Virus record (IMG/VR): IMGVR_UViG_3300032285_003220
Coordinates: 1-47,675 of that record
Strand: one strand, 5' to 3'
DNA length: 47,675 nt
From: a virus
Shown: piece after piece, positions 11,893 to 45,345 of the stretch
How the letters are laid out: the number at the start of each line of letters is the position of its first letter
Numbering within the stretch: the first letter of the stretch is position 1
The notes under the pieces: model-generated
Told to the model about the DNA's origin: nothing
What the model saw: the letters and a program-made list of their open reading frames with translations, nothing else
Database searches by the model: none
Position numbers and translations under genes: made by a program

Positions 11893-12543
11893 TTATAAAT
11901 CGCTTGGATGCCTAAGAGAATATGCTGAGCTGGGTCTTAAATCAGATTGCCATCTTGAGGGATTGGCTCCTGATGTATCAAACCTAATACCGGCTACATG
12001 CATGTATACATGACCTGAATTGGCGTAAATAGTAATCCATTTACCCGGACCTGATCTACCCCATGATGCTAGGTCACCAGATGTCATTGTTGCATCTAAT
12101 AATTTTGCTCCATGAAGGGCATATGACACCGATCCAGAACAATCGTAGCCAGATGCGCTAAACGATCCATGACCTCCGCCCCAAACATAGGGCAAATTAC
12201 GAATCTTGTTGCCAGCCCAAATAACGCTTTTTACAATTTTAGGTGCGTCTTTTGGAGCATAGGCTTCTCCTTTATATACAATTGCCTTAGAACCCTCTAC
12301 AACAGGCTTAGAAGGACTATCGATATTAATTCTCTTTATTACTCCGGCAATTCTCACTTTGCCAGTCCATTTTTCAATTGGAGCAGGGGGTTTTTGCTCT
12401 GGAATAACCCCACCATTGTCAAACAATTGAACAACTTCTTTATTAGCTTGCGGAAGATCCGCTTTCGCATTTGATGGGCAAATCATAGCAAGTGCTATCG
12501 CCGCAACTAGCGCGAATAATATTAGTGTTTTATGATTAAGCAT
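11893..12543 (-). CDS. Secreted NlpC/P60 peptidoglycan hydrolase
   Basis: 216 aa using the ATG at 12543, which has AAGGA 7 bases upstream; a GTG seven codons earlier is less likely. Residues 1-28 form a signal peptide: a basic start, a hydrophobic core LILFALVAAIALAM, then a small-residue end SNAKA. The catalytic domain is C-terminal: PYVWGGGHG, then GYDCSGSVSYAL with nucleophile C135, and NSGHVYM with H178, then RFDTSG and a terminal LRHPSDL. NlpC/P60 enzymes cut peptide bonds in peptidoglycan stems. This WGGGHG / GKWITIYAN form is one I associate with actinobacterial secreted enzymes. It is a lone minus-strand gene inside the late block, bounded by a terminator and a structured leader, so it behaves like a moron. 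It could act in lysis, in wall remodelling, or be a captured host gene. Confidence 0.88.
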   Translation of the reverse strand: MLNHKTLILFALVAAIALAMICPSNAKADLPQANKEVVQLFDNGGVIPEQKPPAPIEKWTGKVRIAGVIKRINIDSPSKPVVEGSKAIVYKGEAYAPKDAPKIVKSVIWAGNKIRNLPYVWGGGHGSFSASGYDCSGSVSYALHGAKLLDATMTSGDLASWGRSGPGKWITIYANSGHVYMHVAGIRFDTSGANPSRWQSDLRPSSAYSLRHPSDL

Positions 12544-12561
12544 AAATACATCCTTGGAACA

Positions 12562-12623
12562 CACTCATTTGTCCTACATTGACTTCGCAAGCCCTCTTAC
12601 TTAACAACTTAACGGGCTGAGTG
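12562..12623 (-). promoter_or_regulatory. Hairpin just upstream of the NlpC/P60 ribosome binding site
   Basis: On the minus strand CACTCA (12618-12623) can pair with TGAGTG (12562-12567), enclosing AGCCC/GGGCT (12614-12618 with 12590-12594) and an inner TTAA/TTAA pair. The base of the stem ends 6 bases before the AAGGA site at 12551-12555. It is a candidate translational control element. It matches no riboswitch consensus that I can recall. Confidence 0.4.
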
Positions 12624-20057: not shown

Positions 20058-20296
20058 ATGCTGTTCAACGTAAACTTTTGATGTATAAGATTTCAAGAGA
20101 TTCAAAAATCCAATTTGAACAAAAAGAAATTGAATTAAAAAATAATATTTTTATTTCTAATCCTGATTTATATAGTACATTGTTTGATGATAATCAAACA
20201 GAGGAAGATTTTGAAATTGAGGCGGTTGTTCCTGAAACAGAGGACGACGTTAATAAATTGCTTGCCGAATTAAAACGGGAAGGTGTTATTAAGTAA
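19524..20296 (+). CDS. Tail assembly chaperone, long -1 frameshift form
   Basis: Zero frame 19524-19943 joined to the -1 frame from 19943 to the TAA at 20294-20296, about 257 aa. The -1 frame is open from 19907, giving a long overlap with the zero frame. After the slip it reads ITRESEYLYGLARLFGAEGR, then DGDYGYAGDGRSGLNAVQRK and a charged C-terminal region ending LLAELKREGVIK. This looks far more like real protein than the zero-frame tail. It matches the G/GT arrangement of tail phages, in which a minority shifted product recruits the tape measure. A separate TTG start at 20078 is therefore not needed. Confidence 0.85.
19937..19985 (+). promoter_or_regulatory. Programmed -1 ribosomal frameshift signal
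   Basis: Slippery heptamer A AAT TTA (19937-19943) lies in the zero-frame phase required for a -1 slip (AAT/TTA re-pairing on AAA/TTT). A 7-base spacer follows, then an 8-bp perfect stem: AGAGTCTG (19951-19958) with CAGACTCT (19978-19985). The 19-base loop contains GGCCTC, and GAGGGCC lies just downstream (19994-20000), so a pseudoknot is possible. Confidence 0.85.
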
Positions 20297-20806
20297 CCAG
20301 TTTCTCCATAGGTTTATCTCTTGCTCAGTTCCTTTGTAATAAAGAGATGGGCTAATTGAATTCATAGTGGGTCCTCGCCATGGTAGAGGCAACTTCTTTT
20401 TTTGATTATAAACCGAAGGCAACCCAAGGCAAAATGCTTTCCATTCATCTTGCCAGTACCCAGATTCAGTCCAAATCTTTTTGTAATTGTAATATTCTGA
20501 ATCAAATGGCGTTGGCAAACTAAGCGAGGTAAGATTCCAACCTCCAGTTTCGCCCGACATGTAATAATATTGATAAACATACTTTCGATAAACTTCCCAA
20601 GGATCGACTCCGCCTTGCTTCTCTAAACGCTTGCGTTGCTCTATTGTCTCTGAAACCCACCAATTAATTATTGAAATAGTAATCAATAAACCGGTAATTT
20701 TTAAAAAATTTGTATTTGATGCTTCGTTTGAATTGGAATTATTCCTTTGAAGAAAAATGACAGACAACCAGATTGCAAATAAAATTTTGTTTAGAGTTAT
20801 TTTCAT
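20270..20806 (-). CDS. Small membrane protein on the minus strand (moron-like)
   Basis: 178 aa, opposite to all neighbours, inserted between the chaperone and tape measure genes, which are normally adjacent. The N-terminus has two hydrophobic segments (about 4-19, KILFAIWLSVIFLQ; and about 36-51, ITGLLITISIINWWV), then a Trp/Tyr-rich soluble part of ~120 residues (DPWEVYRKYVYQYYYMSGET, SPSLYYKGTEQEINLWRNWL). Its 3' end overlaps the end of the frameshifted chaperone by 27 bases. No strong ribosome binding site precedes the ATG; a TATGCT lies about 13 bases upstream, so a leaderless or weak transcript is possible. The family is not recognised. Superinfection exclusion or lysis control is a guess from location and topology. 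Confidence 0.6.
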   Translation of the reverse strand: MKITLNKILFAIWLSVIFLQRNNSNSNEASNTNFLKITGLLITISIINWWVSETIEQRKRLEKQGGVDPWEVYRKYVYQYYYMSGETGGWNLTSLSLPTPFDSEYYNYKKIWTESGYWQDEWKAFCLGLPSVYNQKKKLPLPWRGPTMNSISPSLYYKGTEQEINLWRNWLLNNTFPF

Positions 20807-20841: not shown

Positions 20842-22584
20842 ATGCCAGACCCAAACAATATAGAAAACATAGGCAATGCCGCCATTCTTTCAATTTTGGG
20901 CGAAATTAAAACCGTTTTATCTGAAATTAATACTGGTGTTAGGATTGGTGGTGGCGCAGAAGCAGGAGGTATAGGGGGCGAAGCTTCTTCTGAATCACAT
21001 CCTCCTAATTCAACTATTACTCCTAGCGGACCAAGTAGTAGCATGTTTAAAATTGCTTCTGCTGCTGCAAGCAAATTAAGCACTTCTTTGGAGGCAAATA
21101 GAAGTAAACAAGAAAAAGAAGATGGCATTAGTCGCCCTCCTAAATTACCAGAAAGAGCCGCCGAACGAAGCGCTCAATTCTTTTCTAAAGCTGGGTCAAA
21201 TTACGTTCCCGCAGCTAAAGAATTTGTAAGTACCGTGTCTGATGCTGGAGCTAAATATGGAAAAATAGCTACGCAAATGAATCAAATTGGAGAGATGCAG
21301 GGTATCAGCGGATCAGGTGGAGACATTACTATTCCGGGAACAAGCGTTGGTTTTCGGTCGCCGTTCAATGATGCTTTGGTGGCAGGGTTAAAATTTAAAG
21401 CAGAGGCATTAAAAACTGGCATGCAGGCTGGTATCACTACCGGTCAAGCAGAAGAATACGGTAAAACAACTATTGGAATGGGTTACAATCAAGGAACTTC
21501 TGGATTTGATTCTATTTTTTCGGGATTAGTTGATTTAAATAAAAGCCTTGGGTCGGGCTTTGCAAGTGATCCGCAAGTTCAAGAAATGCTTGATAAATCA
21601 ACTAGGTATGGAACTAATAGCGTCAAGGATTTTACTGACGCAATGAAGGATTTAGTTCCCGCCGCAAGGTCTGCTCATGTTAATATCAAACAAATGACTA
21701 GTGATGCGGCTGCATTTGGAGACTTAGCAAGAAGTACAGGGGGAACATATCTAAGCGGAGTACAAACGATGACTGCAATGGCATTAAGTACCGGTCTTAA
21801 CGGCGCAACAATTGGTCGATTGCAGTCATCTGGATTAGTTCAAGCAAACTTAATGAGAGGCGCACAACTCAATCCATGGCAACTTGCTCAAGCAACCTCT
21901 GGGCAAAGAACTGACGCTATGTATAAAACCATAGACATGCTTTATAATCAAATGGGACCTGCTCCAAAAGACACCTATACAAAAGATCCTACGACTGGAC
22001 TCATGATAAGGCATTCTGGTCAAGATAAACGCGACGCTGATGTTGCCGCAATGCTTAATATTTCCGTTGAAGATTTACAAAAAACGAGAAGAACTGAGGC
22101 GACTTCTAAAAGTCGCGCTGTGGCTGAATCTGGATTTCAGGCGTATACTCAAAATGTCGCTCAGCTTGCTACAGATCCAAAAAAAGCAAATGCGCTTGCA
22201 GCACTTGCAACTGGTCAAACTAACGCGACGCAAGGTTTGATAAATGCCATGCATAATGCCGGTTTAGATCAAAAGGCAATCGATCAAGTAATGGCTGCTG
22301 GTCCGCATGGGCCTAATTTAACCGCCAGTCAGTTAGTTAAAAGAGCAAATGCTCAAAAGGCCGAATTTGAAAAATTAATTGGTCAGACTGGGGCGGCGGA
22401 AAACACTCCTCAAGGGGATAATGTAGTTACAATTAAATTATCAGATGAAAGTAGACGATATCTGCAAATTGATGGAGATCCTAGTGGCGAAACTAAAATT
22501 ACCGTGGGGTCAGGTGGCGTTCGTACATCAAGCAAGGGTCCGCCTGCATATAAACGAACTGGTAAGACTACTAGCGGGGGTTAA
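20842..22584 (+). CDS. Tape measure protein (short)
   Basis: 580 aa. It follows the chaperone pair (with the minus-strand gene between) and precedes the baseplate genes, where the tape measure belongs. It is Ala/Gly/Gln-rich and mostly helical, with a disordered, Gly/Ser-rich N-terminal region (about 35-70), a central helical region (VPAAKEFVSTVSDAGAKYGK, MKDLVPAARSAHVNIKQMTS) and a C-terminal Gly/Lys-rich tail. It has no transmembrane segment or lytic domain, unlike many long tape measures; here the lytic domains sit in the hub genes. At about 1.5 angstrom per residue it would set a fairly short tail; that figure is the general rule, not a measurement. Confidence 0.75.
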   Translation: MPDPNNIENIGNAAILSILGEIKTVLSEINTGVRIGGGAEAGGIGGEASSESHPPNSTITPSGPSSSMFKIASAAASKLSTSLEANRSKQEKEDGISRPPKLPERAAERSAQFFSKAGSNYVPAAKEFVSTVSDAGAKYGKIATQMNQIGEMQGISGSGGDITIPGTSVGFRSPFNDALVAGLKFKAEALKTGMQAGITTGQAEEYGKTTIGMGYNQGTSGFDSIFSGLVDLNKSLGSGFASDPQVQEMLDKSTRYGTNSVKDFTDAMKDLVPAARSAHVNIKQMTSDAAAFGDLARSTGGTYLSGVQTMTAMALSTGLNGATIGRLQSSGLVQANLMRGAQLNPWQLAQATSGQRTDAMYKTIDMLYNQMGPAPKDTYTKDPTTGLMIRHSGQDKRDADVAAMLNISVEDLQKTRRTEATSKSRAVAESGFQAYTQNVAQLATDPKKANALAALATGQTNATQGLINAMHNAGLDQKAIDQVMAAGPHGPNLTASQLVKRANAQKAEFEKLIGQTGAAENTPQGDNVVTIKLSDESRRYLQIDGDPSGETKITVGSGGVRTSSKGPPAYKRTGKTTSGG

Positions 22585-23285: not shown

Positions 23286-24307
23286 TGGCAAAAGAAAAAA
23301 ATAATAAAACTCGTCCCAAGTCTCCTAAAAGACAAAAGAATGATGGTTTTTATAAAAACAATGCATATAAGCAAAGGTCTCAATACGAATCAAAAGAATT
23401 ACAAATTCTTGAAAATCGATCTGACAAGGGCTATGCAGTTAGTACGCCAAACATCAGCCCGGACAACAAAGGAGAAAATTGGAACGTTGCATTGCTATCT
23501 CCATTTGGCGCGTACATGAAATTGTGGGTTAATGAAATTAAAATTGATTTTTCTTTATCGGGTACAACAGGTCAAAGTCGCTATCGTAGACAATTCTTTC
23601 CAAGAGCATTTAATCAACCAAGGATGATTGTTTCAGGATCCATGCCAAATCAAAAAGAGTACAATAGGTTGGCATCTTTTGTTAGAGAGTGTCATTTTGC
23701 CGCAGTTACTGGCACACAAGACTTTTATGCAAATAAAGAAGGACAGTCTGATAAAGCAAGAAAGGGAGCCAGTGTAAGCGCTCAAACAATTTCTTTACTT
23801 GTTAAAGATTCAGGTCCTAGCGTTGTTAAATCCGCTCCTTTGCATACCAAAGGTGGTCACTTACCTTTAAAAGTTGAAGGATATATTACAAATATACGCG
23901 CAGGGGCTACAAAATTTAATTTTGCTCCTGATTTTGAATTTGAATTTATTCCAGCGTATTCGGTTATGAAAGCTGATAAAATTGGAATTTACGAAGATAT
24001 AGAGGATGACGGAAGTCACGTTTCATCATGGATGGACATTTATAAAGTTATTGGTCCACAACAAAGGAATCCAAATCAACCGCTTGGCTCGGGTCAACCA
24101 GTTAGAAACCCTCAATCAACTACAACTGTAACGGCAACGCGTGACACTTCATCTTTTGGTGCAACTAATCCTAATATTATTAAAGATCGCAAAAATTTTG
24201 CAGACGCTGTTAGAAATGGAACAATTGGCAAATCAAACGGCTCTGCTACTAATTCCCATAACCATAGAGCTGATCCAAGAAGTTATGGTTTTGGTGGGAA
24301 TAAATGA
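23285..24307 (+). CDS. Baseplate / distal tail protein
   Basis: 340 aa. The first 35 residues are very basic and disordered (KEKNNKTRPKSPKRQKNDGF). A folded region follows: ENWNVALLSPFGAYMKLWVN, FFPRAFNQPRMIVSGSMPNQ, then LVKDSGPSVVKSAPLHTKGG and LPLKVEGYITNIRAGATKFN. This order of strands, with a sentence-like FEFIPAYSV ending, fits a tail-tip beta-barrel protein that joins the tube to the hub. The C-terminal 80 residues are Asn/Ser/Thr-rich and probably flexible. It overlaps the first hub paralogue by ATGA. The role is inferred from position and composition. Confidence 0.6.
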   Translation: MAKEKNNKTRPKSPKRQKNDGFYKNNAYKQRSQYESKELQILENRSDKGYAVSTPNISPDNKGENWNVALLSPFGAYMKLWVNEIKIDFSLSGTTGQSRYRRQFFPRAFNQPRMIVSGSMPNQKEYNRLASFVRECHFAAVTGTQDFYANKEGQSDKARKGASVSAQTISLLVKDSGPSVVKSAPLHTKGGHLPLKVEGYITNIRAGATKFNFAPDFEFEFIPAYSVMKADKIGIYEDIEDDGSHVSSWMDIYKVIGPQQRNPNQPLGSGQPVRNPQSTTTVTATRDTSSFGATNPNIIKDRKNFADAVRNGTIGKSNGSATNSHNHRADPRSYGFGGNK

Positions 24308-25044
24308 AGAGGCTAGTTTATTCTCCATCAGTTAATGTTTGGATTAAAACCGATACTGGCGTTTTTGATTTAAGCCCTTATATAACCGGATTTAATATTG
24401 ACCGCAGAATTACTGCAACTAGTTATGCTAGTGTAAAATTTAGAAATCCAAAAGTTGATGACGGCCAAGGTGGGACAAGAATGCTTTTTACTGAACATTC
24501 ATCTAATGGTTCAATTGGTCCCATGTTCCATCCAATGGACCCGATCACAATTGTTTTAACTCGTATTAAAGGTCGCCCTGTTCAAGTTTTTAGTGGTTAC
24601 TGCGACACTACTCCATATATACAATTGTTACCGGGCGAGGCAGAGCTTACTGCTTCTTGTACTCTTAAAAGGTTACAATACACTTATTGGGATCCCGCTT
24701 TGCCCTTTGTACGAGACTTTATGAATAAAACAGGTTGGTCTACAACCGCCGAAGGAACTTCATTTAATCCGGATAATCATTTTAGCGGACCTTTACACGA
24801 TGGTAGCATAGGTTATCTTTTACATCAAATTTTAACAGAAATTGGTGGATGGAATGATAAAAATATTTATATTGAAAAGTTGCCTAGTAAACAAATTTCT
24901 ACTATAGTTAAAAAATTATACAGCGATACATCTAAAGAAAACGTTTCATCCATGAAAGAATTTCATGATTTTTTAAGTCAATTAATTGGATCTTCAAATT
25001 ATGGTGCCGCCAATACTACACCGTCAAATACTACAACTGGTTAA
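24304..25044 (+). CDS. Baseplate hub paralogue 1, no lytic domain
   Basis: 246 aa, starting in an ATGA overlap. It is the first of three tandem genes with the same N-terminal domain: MKRLVYSPSVNVWIKTDTG, then FDLSPYITGFNIDRRITATS, MFHPMDPITIVLTRIKGRPV, QVFSGYCDTTPYIQLLPG and CTLKRLQYTYWDPALPFVRD. This is a beta-rich hub domain like the N-terminal half of gpD/gp27-type baseplate hubs, which sit under the tube. It ends after a short Asn/Thr-rich tail where the two paralogues carry enzymes. It could be a truncated or a deliberately bare copy. Upstream GGTGGGAATAA can serve as the ribosome binding site. Confidence 0.75.
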   Translation: MKRLVYSPSVNVWIKTDTGVFDLSPYITGFNIDRRITATSYASVKFRNPKVDDGQGGTRMLFTEHSSNGSIGPMFHPMDPITIVLTRIKGRPVQVFSGYCDTTPYIQLLPGEAELTASCTLKRLQYTYWDPALPFVRDFMNKTGWSTTAEGTSFNPDNHFSGPLHDGSIGYLLHQILTEIGGWNDKNIYIEKLPSKQISTIVKKLYSDTSKENVSSMKEFHDFLSQLIGSSNYGAANTTPSNTTTG

Positions 25045-25053
25045 AGTTTTAAA

Positions 25054-26289
25054 ATGAAAAGATTAGTTTATTCTCCATCAATCAATGTTTGGGTCAAAAC
25101 CGATACCGGAGTTTTTGATTTAAGTCCTTATGTAACAAATTTTGCCGTTGACCGCAGAATTACCGCAACTAGCTATGCCTCTGTTACTTTTAGAAATCCT
25201 AAAGTGATTGACGAAAGAGATTCAAATAGAACTCGTTTTTTATTTACTGAACATATTTACTCAGATAATTCGGTTCGTCCTATGTTTCATCCAATGGATC
25301 CAATTATTATTACATTAACTCGTATTAAAGGTAGACCCGTCCAAGTGTTTACCGGTTATTGCGATACTACGCCGTATGTTCAACTACTGCCGGGAACCGC
25401 TCAAATACAAGCTTCTTGTACACTCAAAAGACTGCAATATACTTATTGGGATCCCGCACTTCCTTTTGTACGAGATTTTATGCTTGCCAATGGTTGGGGC
25501 GTTAGGGACGACGGAACTGCAATAAATTTTTCAGTTGAAGAAAGAGCAAATGCAAGTAAAGATAGTAGTTTAGGATCTCTTCTTTTAAATATTTTAAAAG
25601 AAATCGGTGGATGGAACGATAAAAATATTTACATTGAAGGTTTGCCAGAAAGTATTAAAACTACTGTTGCAAAATTATATGCGGATAATGCAAAAGAAAG
25701 TTCTGAATCTATTAATCAATTTAATGATTTTTTGCATAAATTAATTGGTGGTTCAGCATATGGTTCCCTTTCTGGACAATCAAACTCTTCTCTATCTAAT
25801 AGTAGTCATGGAACAGTTCCTGTAGCACCCCAAGGCGCTCCTCAACTTTTACAGAAATGGATTACTGAAGCTAATAGAATTCATAATCACACAACTGTTT
25901 ATTCTAAAGAAATGGCCAGAAGTACATTAGATCATCTTACTAATCCACCTACGGCTTTAGACGGATCGTATTTCTTTGACTGTTCAAGTTTTACATCTTA
26001 CATGATGAAATTTATTGGTAAATACGGTTTAAGTTATGCTGAAAGATCCGGATGGTTTGCAAATAATTGGGGAGTTCCCGGCAAAGGAAGATATATGACG
26101 GTTTGGGCTAACTCTGAACACGTTTTTACTGAAATAGTTGATAAAGATGGAAAATCTAAATTTATTGGGACATCAGGCTCAGTTGAAAAAGCTAATCACG
26201 GAGGTATGTACGGTCATACCCATACTGTTGGTTGGTTAGATAGTTATCCCACTGCTGGATTTACGCCTAGGCACATAGAAGGTTTGTAA
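25054..26289 (+). CDS. Baseplate hub paralogue 2 fused to NlpC/P60 hydrolase
   Basis: 411 aa. Residues 1-230 repeat the hub domain of the previous gene (MKRLVYSPSINVWVKTDTG, CTLKRLQYTYWDPALPFVRD). After a Ser/Asn linker (about 235-265) comes an NlpC/P60-like domain: YFFDCSSFTSYMMKF with catalytic C310, then GRYMTVWANSEHVFTEI with H356, GTSGS, and an ending GFTPRHIEGL. The order and wording match the secreted NlpC/P60 protein encoded near 12 kb (GKWITIYANSGHVYM, final LRHPSDL). The likely job is cutting peptidoglycan peptides during tail penetration. Its stop shares a base with the next start (TAATG). Confidence 0.85.
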   Translation: MKRLVYSPSINVWVKTDTGVFDLSPYVTNFAVDRRITATSYASVTFRNPKVIDERDSNRTRFLFTEHIYSDNSVRPMFHPMDPIIITLTRIKGRPVQVFTGYCDTTPYVQLLPGTAQIQASCTLKRLQYTYWDPALPFVRDFMLANGWGVRDDGTAINFSVEERANASKDSSLGSLLLNILKEIGGWNDKNIYIEGLPESIKTTVAKLYADNAKESSESINQFNDFLHKLIGGSAYGSLSGQSNSSLSNSSHGTVPVAPQGAPQLLQKWITEANRIHNHTTVYSKEMARSTLDHLTNPPTALDGSYFFDCSSFTSYMMKFIGKYGLSYAERSGWFANNWGVPGKGRYMTVWANSEHVFTEIVDKDGKSKFIGTSGSVEKANHGGMYGHTHTVGWLDSYPTAGFTPRHIEGL

Positions 26290-27473
26290 TGAAAAGATTA
26301 GTTTATTCGCCATCTGTAAACGTTTGGATTAAATCGGACTCGGGAGTTTTTGATTTAAGTCCTTATGTAACAAGTGTGCAAATTGATCGCAGAATTGGCG
26401 CTACTAGCTATGCAAGAGTAAAATTTAGAAATCCTCGGGTTTCAGATGAAAATAACTCTGGTCAAGTTAGATCAATGTTTACTGAAAGCGCTTCAAGTGA
26501 TGGAAGTATTCGCCCTATGTTTCACCCGATGGATCCAATTACAATCACTATGACTCGCATTAAAGGCAGACCAGTTCAGGTTTTTAGTGGTTACTGCGAT
26601 ACCACGCCTCACGTTCAACTGTTGCCGGGAATTGTAGCAATTGATGCCTCTTGTACAATTAAAAGATTGCAGTACACTTACTGGGACCCCGCCTTGCCTT
26701 TTATACGAGGGTTTATGCTTGCTCACGGATGGGGAACCGGTCCCGATGGATTAACTTTAAGTCCTGAAAATGAGGCTCGTAAAACAGCCGGTTTAAATGA
26801 TACTAGTATCGGCAATTTACTTTATTCGGTTTTAACAGAAGTGGGTGGATGGAGTCCCGATAACGTTTATATTGAAAAGTTACCCGGTGAACAAATTTCT
26901 ACTATAGTTAAAAAATTGTATGACGATATAACAAAAGAAAACGCTTCATCAATTAAAGAATTTCATGAATTTTTAACTAATTTAATTGGTAGTTCTAAAT
27001 ACGGTAATTCTACTTATGCCAATGGCGGTAATACTTCTAACACCGCAGGAGAGGGCAATAAAGACACTTCTGTAAAAAATGTAGGAAAAGATTGGGTATC
27101 GCTTATTAATCATTATTCAAATGGCAGATACAACTCCGAACAAGTTTATCGCAAAGCGTTGACCAACGGTAGTAATGGTGGCAACCCTAATGATAGAAAC
27201 ATTGTTGCTGAAAAAGCTAAAAAATGGAAGGTTCCCTTTTCTGTTTTATGGGGAATCTATGGTCACGAAAGCGGATTTGGGAAAGACAAAGGAAGTTATG
27301 AAAAAATGCCAAACTTTGGTTTAACTTATAAATACCCCGGAAATACCAATCTCGGTCCCATAAAGAGTAGATACATTGGAACGTCTGGAGATTTTGTTAC
27401 CGACGCAGAAGAAGTAGCAAAAAGTATACATGATTTGTACAAAAAATACAATGGTAAAGAACCTCAAAATTAA
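26289..27473 (+). CDS. Baseplate hub paralogue 3 fused to lysozyme-like domain
   Basis: 394 aa; AGAAGG lies 6 bases before the ATG. The N-terminal ~230 residues repeat the hub domain again (MKRLVYSPSVNVWIKSDSG, CTIKRLQYTYWDPALPFIRG). After a Gly/Asn/Thr linker the C-terminal ~125 residues carry a different enzyme type: WKVPFSVLWGIYGHESGFG with probable catalytic E327, then MPNFGLTYKYPGN and a final helix EVAKSIHDLYKKYNGK. The pattern fits a lytic transglycosylase or glucosaminidase-like fold cutting the glycan strand, complementary to the peptide-cutting neighbour. Enzyme class is judged from the GHESGFG motif only; the exact family is unsure. Confidence 0.78.
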   Translation: MKRLVYSPSVNVWIKSDSGVFDLSPYVTSVQIDRRIGATSYARVKFRNPRVSDENNSGQVRSMFTESASSDGSIRPMFHPMDPITITMTRIKGRPVQVFSGYCDTTPHVQLLPGIVAIDASCTIKRLQYTYWDPALPFIRGFMLAHGWGTGPDGLTLSPENEARKTAGLNDTSIGNLLYSVLTEVGGWSPDNVYIEKLPGEQISTIVKKLYDDITKENASSIKEFHEFLTNLIGSSKYGNSTYANGGNTSNTAGEGNKDTSVKNVGKDWVSLINHYSNGRYNSEQVYRKALTNGSNGGNPNDRNIVAEKAKKWKVPFSVLWGIYGHESGFGKDKGSYEKMPNFGLTYKYPGNTNLGPIKSRYIGTSGDFVTDAEEVAKSIHDLYKKYNGKEPQN

Positions 27474-27491: not shown

Positions 27492-28991
27492 ATGTCAAAC
27501 AATTATTTAAAAGGTAAATTAAGAACAAAAGCTCCAAATAGTAGGGATGCTAAAACGATTTATCCATTTCCAAAAAGCTCTCATGTAAAACTTAATTTAC
27601 TTGCAGGTTATAAACTTAATGGAAAAACTGGCACTTTTTATCAAATGGATGGCAATCAAAATCATTTGCTTGCTATGTATGATGGGGTTGTTGCAAAAAA
27701 TGTAGCGCGTCAAGAAAGTGACGGATCGAATTCAACAAAAAGCATTTCTGTTCTTTTAAATGAGCCTTTAATATATACTTCAGACAATAAAACTAAAGTC
27801 AATATTGATCAAGTAGTTTATACCGCATTTGATAAAAATGGAAACGTTGTCGATATTGACCCTCCACAAAATTTTGACCTTTCTGGAGTTACCGCTGGAA
27901 ATATTATTGGAGAGGTTAATGCAAATGTTGCTTATGTGCGAGTTACCCTTGGTCCTCGTAGTCAGTTGGGTGGAGGCGGTCCATATTCAGACGAAATATC
28001 TACATACGTTGGACTGTTTGGAGAAAAAGTTGATGGAACGCAAGTTCCAAACCCAACTTCGGGTGGAACCTCTGGCGCAGATCCCGGACAAATAGCAACA
28101 GCAGCGGCCTTTTCTTCTTATTTTACATTGCCAAGCATTTTGGAAATGAAAGAGGCCATTTTGCTTACCGGGCAAAGAAGTCTTCTTAATGATAAGCCGT
28201 TACTGCCATTTGTTGAACAAATTGCGGCGGGTTCACTCAGAGAATTTATGTCTCTTCCTAATGGAGATTTTTATGCGTTTTATCCAGATTATTTTGGTGG
28301 ACTTGGCAAAACCGCTTATTGGGTTATTAAAGATATTGAAATTATAGACGGAAAGATAGATTTGTCCGACGATGAATTAGTAACTCATATGTATGTTGTT
28401 GGTGACACAATGGGTAGCGAAAGCGGAATTGGATACGGCACGGTTGATTACATTGATAGGATTAATACAGCGGGAGTTATTAATGTATTCAATGCGTTTA
28501 TGGCGGATTTTGTTAATGGTCCATCGACATCTGCAAGCGAATCTGGAATGGGTTCCGCCAAACCAAGTTTGCAAAAAAAGGAAGACGCTATTAAATTTCT
28601 TCAAAAATATGGAGCTAGACCACTTACAGAAGAAGTTGCGGCAATTAGATCTCCAATTTATGAAACTTTTTTGGCCTATCAACGATTTTGCTACATGTGG
28701 GCCAAGCAATTTAAAACAACATTTGAATTTACTTTTATGCCGGAGCTTTACCCCGGCGGAATTGTAGAATTTGAAGAACACGGGTTGCAATGTTATATAG
28801 AGCGGGTAGTACATAATGGTTCTTATGAATCTGGATTTACAACTACAGCGGAGTTAACAGCACCATCGGCAACAAGAGATGATTCTGGAAACCCGCATAA
28901 CCCAGATAAATCTTGGGTTCACGCCGGAATGATTAGATCTTGGGATAATCCCACCTCAGATGAAGTTGGCTCTCCTAAGGGCGCATATTAA
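27492..28991 (+). CDS. Baseplate hub protein (second hub component)
   Basis: 499 aa; AAAAGG lies before the ATG. The C-terminal third has the character of hub proteins: EEVAAIRSPIYETFLAYQRF, FTFMPELYPGGIVEFEEHG, then ERVVHNGSYESGFTTTAEL. The N-terminal part is beta-rich (ISVLLNEPLIYTSDNKTKVN) and a Gly-rich loop lies near 165-200. With the three paralogues providing an N-terminal-type hub domain, this gene could supply the complementary half of a split gp27/gpD-like hub. It is followed 15 bases later by the spike gene, the usual partner. Confidence 0.7.
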   Translation: MSNNYLKGKLRTKAPNSRDAKTIYPFPKSSHVKLNLLAGYKLNGKTGTFYQMDGNQNHLLAMYDGVVAKNVARQESDGSNSTKSISVLLNEPLIYTSDNKTKVNIDQVVYTAFDKNGNVVDIDPPQNFDLSGVTAGNIIGEVNANVAYVRVTLGPRSQLGGGGPYSDEISTYVGLFGEKVDGTQVPNPTSGGTSGADPGQIATAAAFSSYFTLPSILEMKEAILLTGQRSLLNDKPLLPFVEQIAAGSLREFMSLPNGDFYAFYPDYFGGLGKTAYWVIKDIEIIDGKIDLSDDELVTHMYVVGDTMGSESGIGYGTVDYIDRINTAGVINVFNAFMADFVNGPSTSASESGMGSAKPSLQKKEDAIKFLQKYGARPLTEEVAAIRSPIYETFLAYQRFCYMWAKQFKTTFEFTFMPELYPGGIVEFEEHGLQCYIERVVHNGSYESGFTTTAELTAPSATRDDSGNPHNPDKSWVHAGMIRSWDNPTSDEVGSPKGAY

Positions 28992-29006: not shown

Positions 29007-30563
29007 ATGGCGGTACAAGATCACATGAAACCGGGGTATGGTCCTCGCAGAGCCTGCACAATTACTACAGTTCATCCAAAAACTAGAAAAATAGAAGCGG
29101 CTTTAAAAGATCAAACAGTTGTTCAAATTGCAGTCTTTGATACAAGAGAATTTTTTGCTTGGCCAAAAGTTGGAGAAAATTGGATTATTCGACAGGCAAA
29201 TGGAATTTGGACCCTTGATCGTCGTGCAGATAACACCGATGATCTTAAAATCAATGATCTTGAACCGGGTCATGGAAAAATTGCAGCAGATGTAGTAAAA
29301 ACTCCTACTGGTAAATCAGTTGTAATTACCGATGATGCTAAAGCTGAAGGTCATTCTGTTTTATCTTACATAGATGATAAATGGCAGCCAAATGCCGATT
29401 TACAAATTAAAAGTTTAAGCGTTAGTGAAAAAGTTGTTTTTGGCGCTGGCGTTGAAATTTCAACTATATCTTCTTCTGGAGTAGGACAGGAAGCCAGTTT
29501 AAATTTAATTGAAACCGTGGGAGCAAAATATATTACTTTAAATGGTGGAAAGGGAACAATCAATCTTTCTGCGGCAAATCCCGAAGATCCGGATTCTGTC
29601 GAACTAGCTAAAAAATCTTCAGTTATTTTTGATAATAATGGATTAATTCAATTTTCTAAACAAGGGACAATTGACTTTAAATCCGCTAGTTTTATTTATT
29701 TAAATAGCAGTGCTTCTGAGAATGGCACTTCAGATGTTGCCGGAAGTATTTTTGTTGGAACTCTTGCTCCTTCGCCAGTAGCATCAATTAATTTTTATAA
29801 AAATCCTAAAAAAATTGAAATCAAAGATTCTCTTTTTGTTGATAGCGATGTAGAAATTACGGGAACTTTAAAAGTTAATACTACCAATGTAACAAATGTA
29901 ATTGGTCAAACTGTAACTGGGACCGATTACGTTTTGGCTAAAAATGATCTATATGTTGGAACAAGTTCATCAACCAACACCATTCATCTAAATGGATTAG
30001 ATGGATCAGCTAGATTTAATGGAATAGTGACTGCTAGTGGAGGAGTTGATACTAATGGTGGAAACATACATTCTGATGCCGGTGTAATTTATACTACAGG
30101 TGGAGTTGATGCCACGGGAGGGAATGTTAGAGCTGACCATTTTTATATTGGATCGGGAACTGGAAATCCTTTGGCTACTCAACTTTGGACACAAAATTTA
30201 ACAGGATATGATAGTGATAATAATAATTGGATTGTAGTTAGATGGACCATAACTCCTTCAAATTTTAATGTAATTTATTTTGAACAAATATGGCCCGTTA
30301 ATTCAACTCAAGGCACTTTATCTGCGGGGCAAGCTAAAACAATTTATTCAAATCAAGAATTGCCTAGTATTATACCCAATAATAGCATACTTCCATTATC
30401 TTCTGCTTTTTCTGGAGCTTCAGGAAATGGTTGGGTTTATACTTCAGCCGTTGGTTATGAAGAGGCAGGTAATCATCAAATTAAAATTGCTATTATTAAT
30501 TCAACAGCAAATGATAGAGTTGGTACTGGTTACGTTAAAGTTTTTGGATGGAAGTTTGGATAG
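29007..30563 (+). CDS. Baseplate spike with OB-fold domain and fibre-like C-terminus
   Basis: 518 aa; GAAAGG lies before the ATG. Residues 15-75 form an OB-fold-like domain (ACTITTVHPKTRKIEAALKD, FFAWPKVGENWIIRQANG), as in gp5/gpV spike proteins mounted on the hub. About 130-300 are strand-rich repeats likely to form a trimeric beta-helix (ASINFYKNPKKIEIKDSLFV, DVEITGTLKVNTTNVTNVIG). The last ~200 residues resemble fibre tips, with Gly/Asn/Thr loops (SGGVDTNGGNIHSDAGVIYT) and an end in YVKVFGWKFG. No lysozyme domain is fused here, because the lytic domains are on the hub paralogues. Confidence 0.75.
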   Translation: MAVQDHMKPGYGPRRACTITTVHPKTRKIEAALKDQTVVQIAVFDTREFFAWPKVGENWIIRQANGIWTLDRRADNTDDLKINDLEPGHGKIAADVVKTPTGKSVVITDDAKAEGHSVLSYIDDKWQPNADLQIKSLSVSEKVVFGAGVEISTISSSGVGQEASLNLIETVGAKYITLNGGKGTINLSAANPEDPDSVELAKKSSVIFDNNGLIQFSKQGTIDFKSASFIYLNSSASENGTSDVAGSIFVGTLAPSPVASINFYKNPKKIEIKDSLFVDSDVEITGTLKVNTTNVTNVIGQTVTGTDYVLAKNDLYVGTSSSTNTIHLNGLDGSARFNGIVTASGGVDTNGGNIHSDAGVIYTTGGVDATGGNVRADHFYIGSGTGNPLATQLWTQNLTGYDSDNNNWIVVRWTITPSNFNVIYFEQIWPVNSTQGTLSAGQAKTIYSNQELPSIIPNNSILPLSSAFSGASGNGWVYTSAVGYEEAGNHQIKIAIINSTANDRVGTGYVKVFGWKFG

Positions 30564-30605: not shown

Positions 30606-31070
30606 ATGACTTGGAGTTTAAAATTACAAAACGGAGATTTGTCAATTGGATCGCAAGGTTTAGAAACCGTTGATAATGAACGTAAAATGATTCAAGATTT
30701 AACTCTTGAATTAAAACAACCAATGGGATCAGATATAAACAACCCTTCATATGGTTCGCTTATTGATGGAGGCATAAATTCCGATGGAGTAATTTATGAA
30801 AGTATTATTGGAGACACTGACCTATCAATGGTTGATTTAAGGGTAAGGTCAGAAATTTCAAGAATAATTAGTAATTATCAATCTAGGCAATTAGCTAGGG
30901 CCAAAGCTGACAAAATGAAATACAATTCACAATCTTTGACCAAGGGAGAAGTTTTGGCGGGAATAGAAGCAATTGACATAAATCAAAATTTAGACAAACT
31001 AGATGTGAGAGTTCATTTAAGAAGCGCTTTGGGATCCGTTGAAACAATTGAAATTATTTTAGGTTTATAA
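30606..31070 (+). CDS. gp25-like baseplate wedge protein
   Basis: 154 aa with the pattern of the gp25/gpW baseplate family: MTWSLKLQNGDLSIGSQGLE, then a helix KMIQDLTLELKQPMGSD, YGSLIDGGI, RVRSEISRIISNYQSRQLAR, and a final strand ALGSVETIEIILGL. Length is typical. These proteins sit at the core of each wedge and help start sheath assembly. It is coupled by a one-base TAATG overlap to the gpJ-like gene, its usual neighbour in many contractile systems. Confidence 0.85.
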   Translation: MTWSLKLQNGDLSIGSQGLETVDNERKMIQDLTLELKQPMGSDINNPSYGSLIDGGINSDGVIYESIIGDTDLSMVDLRVRSEISRIISNYQSRQLARAKADKMKYNSQSLTKGEVLAGIEAIDINQNLDKLDVRVHLRSALGSVETIEIILGL

Positions 31071-34000
31071 TGGCTAGTCAACAACAAATTATTAATAACA
31101 TTATCAATGACCTTAGGTTTAAGGTTCCTTCAATGTCCCTTATTGAGGGAACGCCCGAGCGTAGAATCATTGAGGCCGTCGCTCAAGCAATTGCCGAAAA
31201 TCAAATTGATTTAAATATTTTAAATGGCGGCCTTGATATTGATGCCAAGGTTGGATCTGATCTTGATAACATGCTTGGCCTTTTTGGTTTTGGTCGCCAA
31301 GTCGGAACAAAAGCAAGCGGATTTTTAAAATTATCTAGAAATACTAATGCTGATGCACCGTTGAGAATTCCTGCTGGCACTCAATTTTTGGCTAAAGCAG
31401 CTAATAATGGATCCGATGTTATTTTTATCAGCAATAGGTCAGTTATTATGGCCGCTGGAACAAAAGATGTAATAGTTCCCATTGAGTGCATTGAATCCGG
31501 CGAAAAAGGTAACGTTCCAGCAAATACAATTACCGATTGGAATGGCGCTGCTATTAACAGCATTATTAGTATTAATAATGAAGCTCCAATTGTCGGCGGA
31601 ACAAATAAAGAGTCCGATGACAATTTAAAAGCTCGATTTACGGCAACTGGACCATTTAGAAATTTGGCGGGAACTAGGGATAGCTATTTAGCCCTTGCTT
31701 TATCTACGTTATCTAAAAAAGCAACTATCATTGGACCATCTTCTAAGTATACAGAATACATTCAAGTTCCTGAGCTTCCAGATGATAATGGTGGAAATAG
31801 CTCTGCGTTGAATTACACAACTGCGTTATCAACAAACACTAATGCTAAGTTTATTTATGACAATTTACCATATCACGTATCAGATGATACAACATCATTA
31901 ATTACTATTTATACTCAAGATGCAGATTTTGTAATGAACACCAGCCCTTCGGCTAAAAATAAAGGTGACGCATATAGAGAATACGTAAATGGAATTAATT
32001 TAGACCCATTAAGCACTAGTGCTCCAACTATATATCAACCAAATGTTACGTTTACAAATGTATACACTGGTGATCAAAAAAACATTCAAACCGTTAGTCC
32101 AAAAGACGTTTTGTTTTTTGAATATTCTTATCTTTCTTCTGCTTCAAGAAATGATTATTTAAGAGGTATATCTAATTGCGTCGATATTTATGTTGATAAT
32201 TCTGATCCAGTTTTAGCCAATGTTGAAATGGCTAGGCCGGGTAATTATATTCCTGTAAAAACTTTTGTTCAAGATGATAAAACAAATTACCTTTATTATC
32301 AAAATTTTAGAAGAAAAAATGATAATCAATCTTGTCCAGTTCCCGGTCATATTTACACGCCTATTTTAAATCAACCATTAGTTGAATTACCAAATATGAT
32401 TTCAACTGCTAATGGAACTTTTATTAAAAATGTTCATTATTGGGAGGTCGAAGATTTCACTGATTTGAAAGGCACTATTAGAGCTAGAGATGGAATTGAG
32501 TGGGCAACAAAAATTAGAGCAATGTCAAGCGGCGATTCAGAAACTGGCCCTTATAGTGGTCAATATATAACTGATAGCGCCGCTGTTACTGGTCTGCTTA
32601 CATTGGGCATTAGCACTAGTGCGGACGCCGTTGGTGGTATTGGCACCATAATTAAATTTAATGAATCAATTCTTTTTCCTGATTTTGGAAAATTAATGAT
32701 TGATAATGAGCAGATAAGTTATCAAAAAATTGTAGATACTCCGACTCCCGCTAATAGCGGCTGGATGCCATTTCTTTCTTCTGATCCTGCGTCTGGAACC
32801 GATCAATATATTTGGTTTGGAAGCACTGCTGCTTTGCAAAAATATGGAACTACAACGTTGTCTGCCAATTTGTTATCGTCAATTACTACCGGCGGTTCAA
32901 TATCTGTTACTGCTAATATTAACTTGCCTCAACCAGTTGATACTAATGGTAGTCACCCATTTGTTGTTTTAATTGATGAAGAATTAATATCTTATAAAAC
33001 GACTAGTACTACAACAATTAATGGTGTGACCTACATCACTGGGTTAACAATTCTTGCCCGTGGCGTTAATGGAACAACGATTTCAGATCATAAATCTGGC
33101 GCGACTGTTAGTTCTTTTGTATGTTATAAAGATTCGGCGTACCGTTGTAAAACTTCGTATACTTACAATACTGGATCGAGTACAGTACCATATCCAACTA
33201 CTCCAGATTTAGATAATTATTATTGGGAAAAAATTGGCAATCGTTTACGTTTTGACGCTAGGGGCGATAATTCAACTACAGCCGTTTCTCATTTAGCAAA
33301 AAGCAATATTCAAACATTGTTTGATACTACTGAACAAATCTTATCTATTGAAAATTATACTTACAATGGAAATATTGTAACTCTTCAAGCGCGAGTAGAC
33401 GATGCCAAACAAATAACAACCGACGCATTGGTTCACGAAGCAACAACTCGTTATTTTAAACCTGATATCACAGTTATGTATGACAAGGGTCAAAATCCTA
33501 CAACTGTTAATAACAATATTGTTAATAGTTTGAAATTTTATTTTGACAATCAATATTTTGGTTCAACTATTCAACTTTCAGATATTTTACAAATTATTCA
33601 TAATACCAGCGGCGTAGATAATGTCAAATGGTCTAAAGACAATCTAGTTGCTTCTGTAGATAGCGCTGGTGATCCTAGGAATCGTTTAACTGAAGTTAAT
33701 AAATATGGAAATAGTGCAAAATATTCTTTACAAAAAATAAGTATTGGCGAAGGCGACTTAGGAGGAACACAGGCGACCTCTTATCTATTTTATTTAACTG
33801 ATGAAAATTCTTCAGGAAAATTACAATTTAATTATAATAACAATGATATTTTTGTAACACTTGACGCTAATTTAAATGCTAGCGTATTGAATTCTAAATT
33901 ATCATCTTTTGCCTCTGTGTCCGCTGTTAATTCAAATGCAAAACCAACAATAGATAACCCTTACACAATTACTTATTCAAAAACAAATGATGTAAATGAA

Positions 34001-34174
34001 TTAACAATTGTAAATCCAGAGTTAATTATTGAAACTAAAAAAACTTTCAATAATGACTTTTTACTCGGAGACAATCAATTAACATCGCTCGCCCTGTTGC
34101 AAGATGCTAGCACGGACATTTCACAAATTATTACAATTAGGGTTAAAGCTCAAAATACTTGGAATAAAGTTTAA
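31070..34174 (+). CDS. Baseplate J-like wedge protein with inserted modules
   Basis: 1034 aa. The N-terminal ~220 residues match baseplate J proteins (gp6/gpJ): IINDLRFKVPSMSLIEGTPE, GLDIDAKVGSDLDNMLGLFG, LRIPAGTQFLAKAANNGSDV, and IECIESGEKGNVPANTIT. Most J proteins are far shorter; here the middle is expanded by surface modules. Two follow the LIDNE pattern also found in the sheath and the 1023-aa protein: MIDNEQISYQKI (from 543) and VLIDEELISYKT (near 632), the second continuing to LARGVNGTTISDHKSGATV. The C-terminal part returns to J-like phrases (MYDKGQNPTTVNNNIVNSLK). Wedge function is well supported; the insert role is unknown. Confidence 0.85.
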   Translation: MASQQQIINNIINDLRFKVPSMSLIEGTPERRIIEAVAQAIAENQIDLNILNGGLDIDAKVGSDLDNMLGLFGFGRQVGTKASGFLKLSRNTNADAPLRIPAGTQFLAKAANNGSDVIFISNRSVIMAAGTKDVIVPIECIESGEKGNVPANTITDWNGAAINSIISINNEAPIVGGTNKESDDNLKARFTATGPFRNLAGTRDSYLALALSTLSKKATIIGPSSKYTEYIQVPELPDDNGGNSSALNYTTALSTNTNAKFIYDNLPYHVSDDTTSLITIYTQDADFVMNTSPSAKNKGDAYREYVNGINLDPLSTSAPTIYQPNVTFTNVYTGDQKNIQTVSPKDVLFFEYSYLSSASRNDYLRGISNCVDIYVDNSDPVLANVEMARPGNYIPVKTFVQDDKTNYLYYQNFRRKNDNQSCPVPGHIYTPILNQPLVELPNMISTANGTFIKNVHYWEVEDFTDLKGTIRARDGIEWATKIRAMSSGDSETGPYSGQYITDSAAVTGLLTLGISTSADAVGGIGTIIKFNESILFPDFGKLMIDNEQISYQKIVDTPTPANSGWMPFLSSDPASGTDQYIWFGSTAALQKYGTTTLSANLLSSITTGGSISVTANINLPQPVDTNGSHPFVVLIDEELISYKTTSTTTINGVTYITGLTILARGVNGTTISDHKSGATVSSFVCYKDSAYRCKTSYTYNTGSSTVPYPTTPDLDNYYWEKIGNRLRFDARGDNSTTAVSHLAKSNIQTLFDTTEQILSIENYTYNGNIVTLQARVDDAKQITTDALVHEATTRYFKPDITVMYDKGQNPTTVNNNIVNSLKFYFDNQYFGSTIQLSDILQIIHNTSGVDNVKWSKDNLVASVDSAGDPRNRLTEVNKYGNSAKYSLQKISIGEGDLGGTQATSYLFYLTDENSSGKLQFNYNNNDIFVTLDANLNASVLNSKLSSFASVSAVNSNAKPTIDNPYTITYSKTNDVNELTIVNPELIIETKKTFNNDFLLGDNQLTSLALLQDASTDISQIITIRVKAQNTWNKV

Positions 34175-43300: not shown

Positions 43301-43461
43301 ATTATTATCAATATGATGGAGGCGAAAATCAAAATGGATTCATGCATGTTGTTTTAACAGGTACTGATAATCATAATAGAAATTTTGTGTATAATACAAT
43401 CGTTTATCCAAAAACTGATACGGAAACTAATTGGACGACTAATACACAATTAACTTCCTAG
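40390..43461 (+). CDS. Repeat-rich 1023-aa baseplate or fibre protein
   Basis: 1023 aa, starting in an ATGA overlap. It contains at least three copies of an IL-I/V-DNE-I-Y module: IDNEYINY at 158-165, IDDEVISY at 301-308 and VDNEQINY at 373-380. The last leads to TRGVNGTTATSHATNAIV (468-485); later TRG copies occur near 885 and 970. It also has several GD-x-V/I-x-I...YNGTF-type modules (SLIKINGCNPNKYNGWYYV, YITISDARIPAYNGTFKVTV). Both module types are shared with the sheath insert and the J-like protein. This modular, Ser/Thr/Asn-rich make-up fits a long surface or fibre protein. The 3' end overlaps the convergent helicase by 12 bases. Confidence 0.7.
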   Translation: MKKIQNLMLVNLQPTLSIKSKTNQNFPKYEITNVKSYYDNNGTISSVSRIAGSDISSPNNQDAYAQFGNYYYVPKFDSTFTDPTLCRVNYLISFDSNKTNKIIKWQLKYGDGTYSEGIGPENLLLINNNLSSSDTTIKAKLNLNGNFQKISTVGTLLIDNEYINYTQMGINLTTPTWSSINSYGYGILLNDISSTDTTIKVSNLEKSFTGVSGLSATNVFTKLGHDLTNGTVITLSSLSGGSNLSTSSTFYYVINSDIAKGTFQLSTSASGSVQTLGSDVASVTINVSNYSKFASSGSILIDDEVISYTTASSDPDSTNKPAIATGNFSTASGTLLKDLPASKSDIITGGTEANDFFEINSTDNFPESGTILVDNEQINYNKKTNYGKISSIAVLADGVLTIKVENHNLVSGSLIKINGCNPNKYNGWYYVNQKISNDIFNVINSEAITDELIIVTNAILTPTLYELTRGVNGTTATSHATNAIVKNINVTNVVESTGNFKIGSLIKDASNTVIPTDTYISNIQNNIYSEGLISYNGTSVTGYGTNFTSNMINKIITYPDGTEAKIVTQPSATSLTTNTTSTKSSIFYVNSAQSLPIGTYYKCIYYTSAPHNIEIGDYVTVSNMNDTDYSFSGTVVDAGQPTAIGILTTVVGTSGTPTTTVAKNSSYTLTAAAGTFRTKEIVDGILVTGTAVFAISNYNSDTSVTAICLQSGNLASNKKFELTYNVPSNTFDIAAATASGTIYTIYTTGDHDLKSNDYITISDARIPAYNGTFKVTVTNTTTFTITGLTSSPDSMNPLDKNAIGSNGTIVKNANVMFALLKSTDPGATSDGKGTSGSLSQVNVYKKYKIVNGLNITLNQPVKSNSSNLTFYTPGPTLTTLNCTRGTQSTTATNHYKDTSVGQLAVYNNVPYVAIQSHSATTTTPNNSKYWLKIDDQKLIITFSNLTRGAFVTTAASHKINSLIKGVIKTSHYYQYDGGENQNGFMHVVLTGTDNHNRNFVYNTIVYPKTDTETNWTTNTQLTS

Positions 43462-45345
43462 AATATACATAAAGTCTTTTTTGCTCATCCTTTGGCTAAT
43501 TGCTTGATCGGCAATAGCTCCCTTAAAGATGGCATCATGATATCCCATTTTGTCAAGGACGACTTTAAGTTTTCTGTCTTCTACTGAGTTTGCCATTAGC
43601 AGTGTGTAAAACCTGACGGTTTCAAAGTTAGATGTAACTCGGTGAATGCGATTCTCGCGCTGAGTATAAGTAGACCACTTCCATGGCAAGTCGTAATGAA
43701 TGCATACGGAACCAACTTCAAGGTTAATAGAATCTGAACCTGCATCCGAAGACAAGAACACTTGAATATTTGGATCTGTCTTAAACTTATCTTCTGCTTC
43801 TTGTCTTTGCTTTGCCGTGCCGCCATAGTAAACATGAGATACGCCCCACTCGTCAAAGTACTTGCGCAAATCTGGCATTAATCCATTATTGAATGCAGAG
43901 AACACAGTAATCTTTTCATCTGGATGTGCTTCTGTAATGAGGGATTTAAGCACCTCTAACTTTGCATGACCATCATTGGTAAATTTTTCAGGTTTAATAA
44001 CATCCATTAGCTTAGCTGCAACTTCTGATCCTGACTTGTCAGGCGCACTAGCGCCCAAATCAAATGCTTCTTGTACCGCTGCCTCAAATGCCTCAAATGC
44101 AGCGGCAGAATTAAGAACCATCGATGGCATGTTGCAGATCATCTGAAGTATTGTAATAATTGCAAGGATGTTTACGTCGTCCGGATCAACCTTACGAGCT
44201 TCTTTGCGCACTGAATCATAAAGACTGCGCTGCTTATCATTCCAATCAATAAAGTATGGCTCAGATATAACATTAGGAAACATCTTTGCAATGTCTTGAT
44301 CGTGCTTATCTACCTGATGAACAATATGAGAAGCCTTAAGTCCCATCTTGTCTAGGTTGTGCCATGCCGCTGGTTTATTGCGATCAAAATAATCGTATCT
44401 TGCGACGTACTCATTACGAAACTCTTTGACGGTTCCGTAAACATCTGGATCAATAATCCTAATGCAGTTGAAAAAATCTTCTGGATTATTTTCAATTGGT
44501 GTTGCTGACAGCATGTATTGCCGTAGCTCAGCCCGCTCTCTATCTTTCGATACTTGCGGGGGTGGTGTCGTATAAAGACACTCAACTACACCTTTATAAT
44601 TCTGGGACGATCTGGTTTTTAGTTTAGTTGGCATCTCATCCCAAATGATAAAGACGCGCTTGCCTCCGATTATGTTCTTTAGTTCTTCTGTGTCTACTCT
44701 AAACTTCTCATAGTTGAGAATGAGTACGGTTTTGTCAAAAGAGACCTCTGAATAAAGTTTTTCCCTTTTAGCTCTATTGCCACGAATAACGGTTGAATCA
44801 ATTCCTACAAGCCTCTCTAGGCTTCTCTGGGTGTTAATAGTGTTGTGACTCTTTACCACAAACAGTGCTAAGTCAAAATTGTCTTGGTCGTAGTGATATT
44901 TGAGCAATGCTGAGGCAATAACAGTTTTGCCCGTTCCAGTAGACCACTCAACTACTCCGCCCTTAAGATCTTTAAGAAAGTTGAATCCTTGAACTTGAAA
45001 AGGAAGAAAACCATTAATTGTATTATCAAATGGCGATTCAATCTTAACTTCGGGTACATTATCTAATGATAGATACTGATCAATGTTTGGCGTTGGATCT
45101 TGCGTCCAAACCACTTCTTTGTTTAGATCTTTGCAAAGAGAAAGAAATCCATCAATCCGTGCCGTTGATACAGACCTGTACCTGCCAATGTATTTATCAA
45201 CTTCATAAAAGAAGGATTCATCAAAAGCATTAACGAGCCATTGATCTACAAAATCAGGATGAGGGTCAAGGATTACAAAATTGCTTCTGTGATCCTCGCC
45301 CTTCTCATCAAGTTCAAATAGTAATTCGGATGTAAGTAGTTTCAT
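43450..45345 (-). CDS. SNF2/SF2-type DNA helicase
   Basis: 631 aa. Motifs of an ATP-driven superfamily 2 helicase are clear: Walker A STGTGKT (135-141), DExx motif WDEM (235-238), motif III LSATP (279-283), motif V region SSDAGSDSINLEVG, and motif VI TQRENRIHR (561-569). The TQRENRIHR and YDLPW wording is typical of the SNF2/RapA-like group. It likely remodels DNA or protein-DNA complexes in phage replication, recombination or transcription. It is the last gene of the minus-strand operon, and its start overlaps the stop of the HTH gene by 4 bases. The long N-terminal ~110 residues are outside the helicase core. Confidence 0.9.
   Translation of the reverse strand: MKLLTSELLFELDEKGEDHRSNFVILDPHPDFVDQWLVNAFDESFFYEVDKYIGRYRSVSTARIDGFLSLCKDLNKEVVWTQDPTPNIDQYLSLDNVPEVKIESPFDNTINGFLPFQVQGFNFLKDLKGGVVEWSTGTGKTVIASALLKYHYDQDNFDLALFVVKSHNTINTQRSLERLVGIDSTVIRGNRAKREKLYSEVSFDKTVLILNYEKFRVDTEELKNIIGGKRVFIIWDEMPTKLKTRSSQNYKGVVECLYTTPPPQVSKDRERAELRQYMLSATPIENNPEDFFNCIRIIDPDVYGTVKEFRNEYVARYDYFDRNKPAAWHNLDKMGLKASHIVHQVDKHDQDIAKMFPNVISEPYFIDWNDKQRSLYDSVRKEARKVDPDDVNILAIITILQMICNMPSMVLNSAAAFEAFEAAVQEAFDLGASAPDKSGSEVAAKLMDVIKPEKFTNDGHAKLEVLKSLITEAHPDEKITVFSAFNNGLMPDLRKYFDEWGVSHVYYGGTAKQRQEAEDKFKTDPNIQVFLSSDAGSDSINLEVGSVCIHYDLPWKWSTYTQRENRIHRVTSNFETVRFYTLLMANSVEDRKLKVVLDKMGYHDAIFKGAIADQAISQRMSKKDFMYILGS

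Follow-up and report, generated by a model that had tools for sequence, protein, structure and literature searches.

The window analysed here, i.e., the whole 47,675-nt stretch of viral DNA, encodes in succession a sheath protein, a tail assembly chaperone, a probable tape measure, two small proteins, a group of hub proteins, a probable spike, a baseplate protein and a J-like wedge protein, and from the tape measure onward this order is that of Myrna and Rhodococcus phage E3. The features that bear on the hub and its surroundings are the following:

20842-22584, plus strand: probable tape measure gene, given for context (weak match to Pfam PhageMin_Tail; position as in Myrna and E3)
24304-25044, plus strand: hub N-half copy 1, 246 aa, no cargo (ORF; N part of phrog_2810)
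24739-24798, plus strand: variable loop of copy 1, residues 146-165, a candidate address element (loop comparison)
25054-26289, plus strand: hub N-half copy 2, 411 aa, with a predicted C-terminal NlpC/P60 cargo domain (C310, H356)
26289-27473, plus strand: hub N-half copy 3, 394 aa, with a putative C-terminal lysozyme-like (transglycosylase-like) cargo domain (E327)
27492-28991, plus strand: hub C-half, single copy, with the hub part at about residues 190-480 (C part of phrog_2810)
27492-28061, plus strand: leader of the C-half, M23-peptidase-like but without the catalytic His/Asp (alignment against L006 and L005)
29007-30563, plus strand: gene next 3' of the hub, probably for the central spike or a minor tail protein, given for context (gene order as in Myrna and E3)
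30606-31070, plus strand: baseplate protein (phrog_2669, E=2e-15)
31070-34174, plus strand: baseplate J-like wedge protein (Pfam Baseplate_J, E=1e-20)

As the original prediction had it, three consecutive genes share an N-terminal hub domain with the motifs quoted there (e.g., FHPMDPI); the N-terminal ~240 residues are 62-68% identical among the three paralogues. Their different endings were also read correctly for the first two copies: copy 1 stops directly after the shared domain and copy 2 continues into a domain with C310 and H356, both conserved in relatives. The genes lie in the same direction with 9 nt between copies 1 and 2 and a 1-nt overlap between copies 2 and 3, a spacing that leaves no cargo concealed by a frameshift. 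All the invariant hub residues are kept in all three copies, and the hub domain of the cargo-free copy is as constrained as those of the other two (pN of 0.108 in copy 1 versus 0.096 and 0.117), with the reservation that the loss of its cargo may be too recent for this constraint to say much. Copy 1 is closest to copy 2 of the related phage L004 (82% identical), which bears an SLT domain; dS is saturated, making synonymous divergence unusable for dating such events. No fourth N copy was found in the window or in the searched records of its relatives.

The three N-halves match residues 47-270 of the 952-residue phrog_2810 model (E=4e-35, 2e-33 and 6e-36), a virion protein in PHROGs, and the gene that follows matches residues 649-921 of the same model (E=8e-57). 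The AlphaFold2 model of the N-half contains a confident barrel at residues 10-120 (pLDDT about 90) with the tube-like fold of gp27/gp44/VgrG-type hubs. The structures in the PDB that the model matches best are contractile-system hubs, namely AlgoCIS, E217, Anabaena CIS, VgrG and MuSo2 (E=4e-4 for both 7aef_q and 8eon_E). As hubs of this type require, the genes are placed between the tape measure and the spike and wedge genes. The phrog_2810 match, the gene order and the fold matches thus point to the trio being one half of a split baseplate hub. The designation of the shared domain as a hub therefore stands as to identity, which is supported by gene order and by comparison of the predicted fold, but it applies to the N-terminal half only, the C-terminal half being the product of 27492-28991. 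An internal duplication, with the N-half homologous to the C-half, was considered and rejected, as no signal of it was seen.

Whereas the two barrels are encoded by separate genes in the window, they are fused into one chain in relatives. The single-chain hub of the Bxz1/Myrna group (Myrna gp132, Rhodococcus phage E3 gp119) has the same N and C halves in the same neighborhood, and Myrna gp132 is a single 963-aa gene product with an NlpC/P60 domain between the halves. The window retains homologs of both parts of this phrog_2810 family but departs from its single-gene, single-copy layout, with four genes (a C-half and three N-halves) in place of the one in Myrna and E3; by descent, its hub belongs to the Bxz1/Myrna family, minus the single-gene arrangement. 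The chain is cut within the lytic insert, such that the N genes bear their cargo C-terminally and the C gene has an M23-type leader at its N-terminus. This leader matches Pfam M23 in L005 and L006, but in the window and in L004 its catalytic residues are missing, and it evolves faster than any other part (pN 0.28 versus 0.04 for the hub part of the C-half); in the window it has decayed. In the predicted structure of a fused homolog, L033, the insert is disordered and PDB matches cover at most 317 columns, one half at a time, and for this reason the packing of N against C cannot be read from it.

With respect to the cargo domains, C310 and H356 of copy 2 are invariant in seven homologs, and the best solved-structure matches of its cargo profile are nearly all NlpC/P60 proteins (RipA/RipB, LytE, CwlO), with marginal E values of 0.005-0.5. 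The copy 2 protein itself has no Pfam match; the fused relative Myrna gp132 is above the curated cut-off of PF00877, and the NlpC matches of L010, L013 and L032 are below it. We consider the NlpC/P60 identity predicted for this cargo to be good. The lysozyme-like assignment of copy 3 in the original prediction is weaker than this: its E327, the candidate catalytic Glu of an ES motif, is indeed invariant in three homologs, but the family match is below cut-off (Pfam SLT_2, E=0.02) and no PDB match was found for the cargo. A further NlpC/P60-like stretch (Pfam E=6e-4, below cut-off) occurs in a 223-aa ORF at 11893-12564 on the minus strand, amid plus-strand virion genes, whose product is possibly a separate lysin.

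A search for the trio in related phages had been suggested as a check, and whole-record searches recovered exactly three N-halves and one C-half (3N+1C) in six further IMG/VR phages, two of them with records of 127 and 132 kb (L011 is a near-identical record to L009). Their cargoes, called from matches to Pfam or PHROGs or from resemblance among the relatives, are, at positions 1, 2 and 3:

L004: NlpC; SLT; lysozyme-like
L005: M23; no recognised domain; SLT_3
L006: amidase; transglycosylase; DPBB-like (by eye only)
L008: GDSL + VanY-like (both below cut-off); NlpC-like; no recognised domain
L009: esterase-like + amidase; NlpC-like; DPBB (below cut-off)
L010: amidase + SLT; NlpC; no recognised domain (resembles the second of L005)

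From this list, nearly every trio combines peptide-side with glycan-side chemistry. Cargo is not tied to the N-half that carries it: it differs on the matching N-halves of window copy 1 (none) and L004 copy 2 (SLT), and at positions 1 and 3 L009 has other cargo than L010 with the N-half retained. The first-position paralogues of L008 (5101-6723) and L009 (8001-9866) combine a GDSL/SGNH-esterase-like domain with a VanY-like or amidase domain, and the former possibly acts on wall decorations.

Architectures were established from scans of viral contigs and whole-record counts of N and C halves. The commonest among the relatives is the fused single gene, which in the Myrna/Bxz1 group encodes a chain of ~800-1,010 residues with an N-barrel, lytic insert and C-barrel. 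The isolate relatives (211 records, from phages of Mycobacterium, Gordonia, Rhodococcus and Eggerthella) have essentially one hub place each and no paralogues, copy 3 matching 210 places in 210 records, the C-half 211 in 211 and copy 1 213 in 211. Searches of bacterial and archaeal genomes found no relatives. L012 has a split hub with a single N and a single C gene (1N+1C). L013 (5291-10808) by itself has two complete hub sets that differ in architecture (2N+2C), namely a split N and C pair beside a fused N-lytic-M23-C gene. In L032 (5354-12147), two N-halves are followed by three C-halves with M23, M23 and NlpC-like leaders (2N+3C), i.e., the tripling is on the C side instead of the N side. 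Three N genes are hence not universal, as L032 and L013 attest, and more than three of either half were not found in any record counted.

In the tree of C-halves, the seven 3N phages (the window and the six others) form one clade (support 84/75, not starred), with the 1N+1C phage L012 as its sister within a starred clade. Given this topology, one split and one triplication suffice, and no later gain or loss of an N gene is seen among the seven phages on this tree. The order of events suggested by the sequences is a fused hub that was first split and later underwent a single triplication, after which the number stayed at three while cargoes were swapped or lost. Independent triplication in each lineage was judged less economical in view of the single clade in the C-half tree and the position-keeping loops of L008, L009 and L010 (see below). 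The trio persists over deep divergence.

In the tree of N-halves, on the other hand, the copies group by phage group. The N-domain tree rejects the NlpC-bearing N-halves as one ancient vertical lineage (AU p about 1e-75), and yet the NlpC cargoes themselves share 35-56% identity from group to group, a likeness that, set against the N tree, is better accounted for by gene conversion than by vertical descent. In several genomes the paralogues have exact common DNA tracts of 28-64 nt, as opposed to at most 20 nt in orthologues with 82% identical proteins, and these longer tracts argue for gene conversion between the paralogues. Such conversion reconciles the single clade of the C-half tree with the by-group clustering of the N-half tree. 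Gene conversion among tandem copies is possible without co-assembly of their products. Every N-half of the window can be paired clearly with a single one of L004 despite a changed order, copy 1 corresponding to copy 2 of L004 and copy 2 to its copy 1.

One segment behaves differently from the rest of the N-half. In L008, L009 and L010 the hub cores are more alike within a phage than between phages, but the loop flanked by a conserved GW and, after it, D-S-S-I-G is matched best by its positional counterpart in the other phage (normalised scores 0.34-0.57 versus ≤0.20 elsewhere). For L008 against L009, the shuffle p on the diagonal is 0.0003, the lowest value the test can give, and ≥0.035 elsewhere. 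Because the match holds though the cargoes of L009 and L010 differ at positions 1 and 3, the loop tracks position and not cargo; judged from these comparisons, it escapes homogenisation in the three phages. The position-specific signal is seen in L008/L009/L010 and, trivially, in the close pair of the window and L004; comparisons of L005 with L006 and of distant groups did not show it. In the window the loop of copy 1 has similarly placed equivalents in copies 2 and 3, and the copy 1 model is of low confidence at residues 159-165.

As N and C are held at 1:1 by fusion in the relatives, and the solved hubs of this fold are trimers (PMC10996793, PMC10966104), there should be three N places per hub; each of the seven genomes of the clade has three N genes, even where one copy lacks cargo. 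The best reading, which we consider on balance probable, is a hub in which a homotrimer of the C chain is combined with three N chains that differ from each other. The ancestral hub would have been one chain with an N-barrel, lytic insert and C-barrel, forming a trimer around the spike; a cut inside the insert would have left each half with a piece of it at the cut end, and the N-half gene would have triplicated once after the split. The present hub would then consist of three C-halves (27492-28991) and three N-halves, normally one per tandem gene, giving a virion with a single NlpC/P60 peptidase, a single lysozyme-like glycan cutter and a position left empty, rather than three identical sets. 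The variable loop at about residues 145-165 might mark which N-half adjoins which, while gene conversion would keep the common core alike so that all three fit one ring. We infer the co-assembly, the trimeric ring, the 1:1:1 ratio, the role of the loop as an address and the use of the enzymes at wall penetration from these patterns. A heterotrimer with defined positions predicts a number of N genes equal to that of the places and a constrained cargo-free copy. In its strictest form, i.e., an obligate, ordered 1:1:1 heterotrimer with the loop as address tag, one each of three exchangeable tools and a uniform core, the proposal is tentative and has somewhat less than an even chance.

A looser arrangement, possible but rather unlikely in our estimation, is that of mixed trimers in which interchangeable N-halves fill the three places at random and give varied enzyme sets, as bet-hedging or for dosage. 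Nearly equivalent, homogenised cores are consistent with it, a cargo-free copy would simply dilute bulky cargo, and the 2N+3C of L032 suits a loose rule better than a strict one; yet it explains neither the exact count of three in seven genomes nor the cargo-independent, position-specific loop of L008, L009 and L010. The original prediction had also allowed for alternative hubs, each virion using one N paralogue three times, with three classes of particle differing in wall-cutting ability. This would keep to the known rule of homotrimers with lytic cargo, as in diffocin CD1368 (PMC10996793) and A-1(L) gp15 (PMC10966104), but a hub made of copy 1 only would have no lytic domain at all, the leader of the C-half being decayed, and nothing would hold copy 1 under full constraint. 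There is, moreover, a single C gene, the N genes all point the same way at intervals of 0-9 nt and show no sign of switching, and the retention of exactly three is left unexplained, as is the loop. The lack of a second C-half and the enzyme-free hub of copy 1 make such alternative hubs less likely than the heterotrimer, and we regard them as improbable. Least probable of all, and quite doubtful, is a single structural N-half with the other two as duplicated carriers, free virion-attached lysins or decaying copies: tandem duplicates often decay and copy 1 of the window lost or never had cargo, but all three keep every invariant hub residue at low pN, neither surplus nor broken copies turn up, and the trio has outlasted deep divergence.

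For the heterotrimer, the closest working likeness is the set of VgrG-1, VgrG-2 and VgrG-3 of Vibrio cholerae, three hub-spike paralogues for which a heterotrimer has been proposed (PMC8668125, PMC3166118) and of which VgrG-2 has no extension and the other two carry effector domains (PMC3166118, PMC8668125), which makes them a precedent. These VgrGs differ from the present system in being full hub-spike chains of a secretion system, neither split into halves nor encoded by a fixed tandem trio but by scattered genes. As a caution, the apparent requirement for more than one VgrG in Aeromonas SSU proved to come from the effectors and not from the heterotrimer (PMC8668125). Among hubs with lytic cargo, the diffocin hub-hydrolase CD1368 is a gp27-like trimer with a lytic transglycosylase and an NlpC/P60 endopeptidase (PMC10996793), and gp15 of Anabaena phage A-1(L) is a hub trimer with several hydrolase domains, two of them shown to be active (PMC10966104). 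Since these solved hubs are trimers of one chain, their cargo comes in threes: CD1368 has both enzymes on the one chain, three times over (C3), whereas in the window they are on different chains, and the one-chain homotrimer of gp15 is unlike the several N genes of the window. The literature searched, with most subscription journals outside its scope, yielded no phage with a heterotrimeric hub. The contrast originally drawn took fusion of the cargo to the spike or tape measure as its baseline, which is the wrong one in that the relatives carry their lytic domains on the hub chain; what is new here is the spread of lytic cargo over paralogues of a split hub chain. If the heterotrimer is real, the phage would have broken the three-fold symmetry of its tip to carry different tools in each particle, as T6SS spikes may do, and the loop would suggest a code for ordered assembly. 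The series from fused to split to tripled hubs, with the parallel 2N+3C and 2N+2C forms, would then be a natural history of a homotrimer becoming a heterotrimer.

The phages related by the hub point to an actinobacterium as the probable host, and the G+C content of the window (38%) would fit a low-GC actinobacterium, e.g., one of the freshwater Nanopelagicales. Elsewhere in the tail region, the gene for the tail assembly chaperone is immediately followed by a small plus-strand ORF (20078-20296), which may extend it through a frameshift of the kind annotated in Myrna. Between the chaperone and tape measure genes there is a 178-aa ORF without a family match on the minus strand (20270-20806), which is conserved in L004 (2748-3284, minus strand) and has shorter minus-strand counterparts at the same place in L005 and L006. 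Downstream of the tail genes, the opposite strand encodes an SNF2-type helicase (43450-45345, minus strand), followed by a helix-turn-helix protein and a homing-endonuclease-like protein with a match to a zinc-binding loop.
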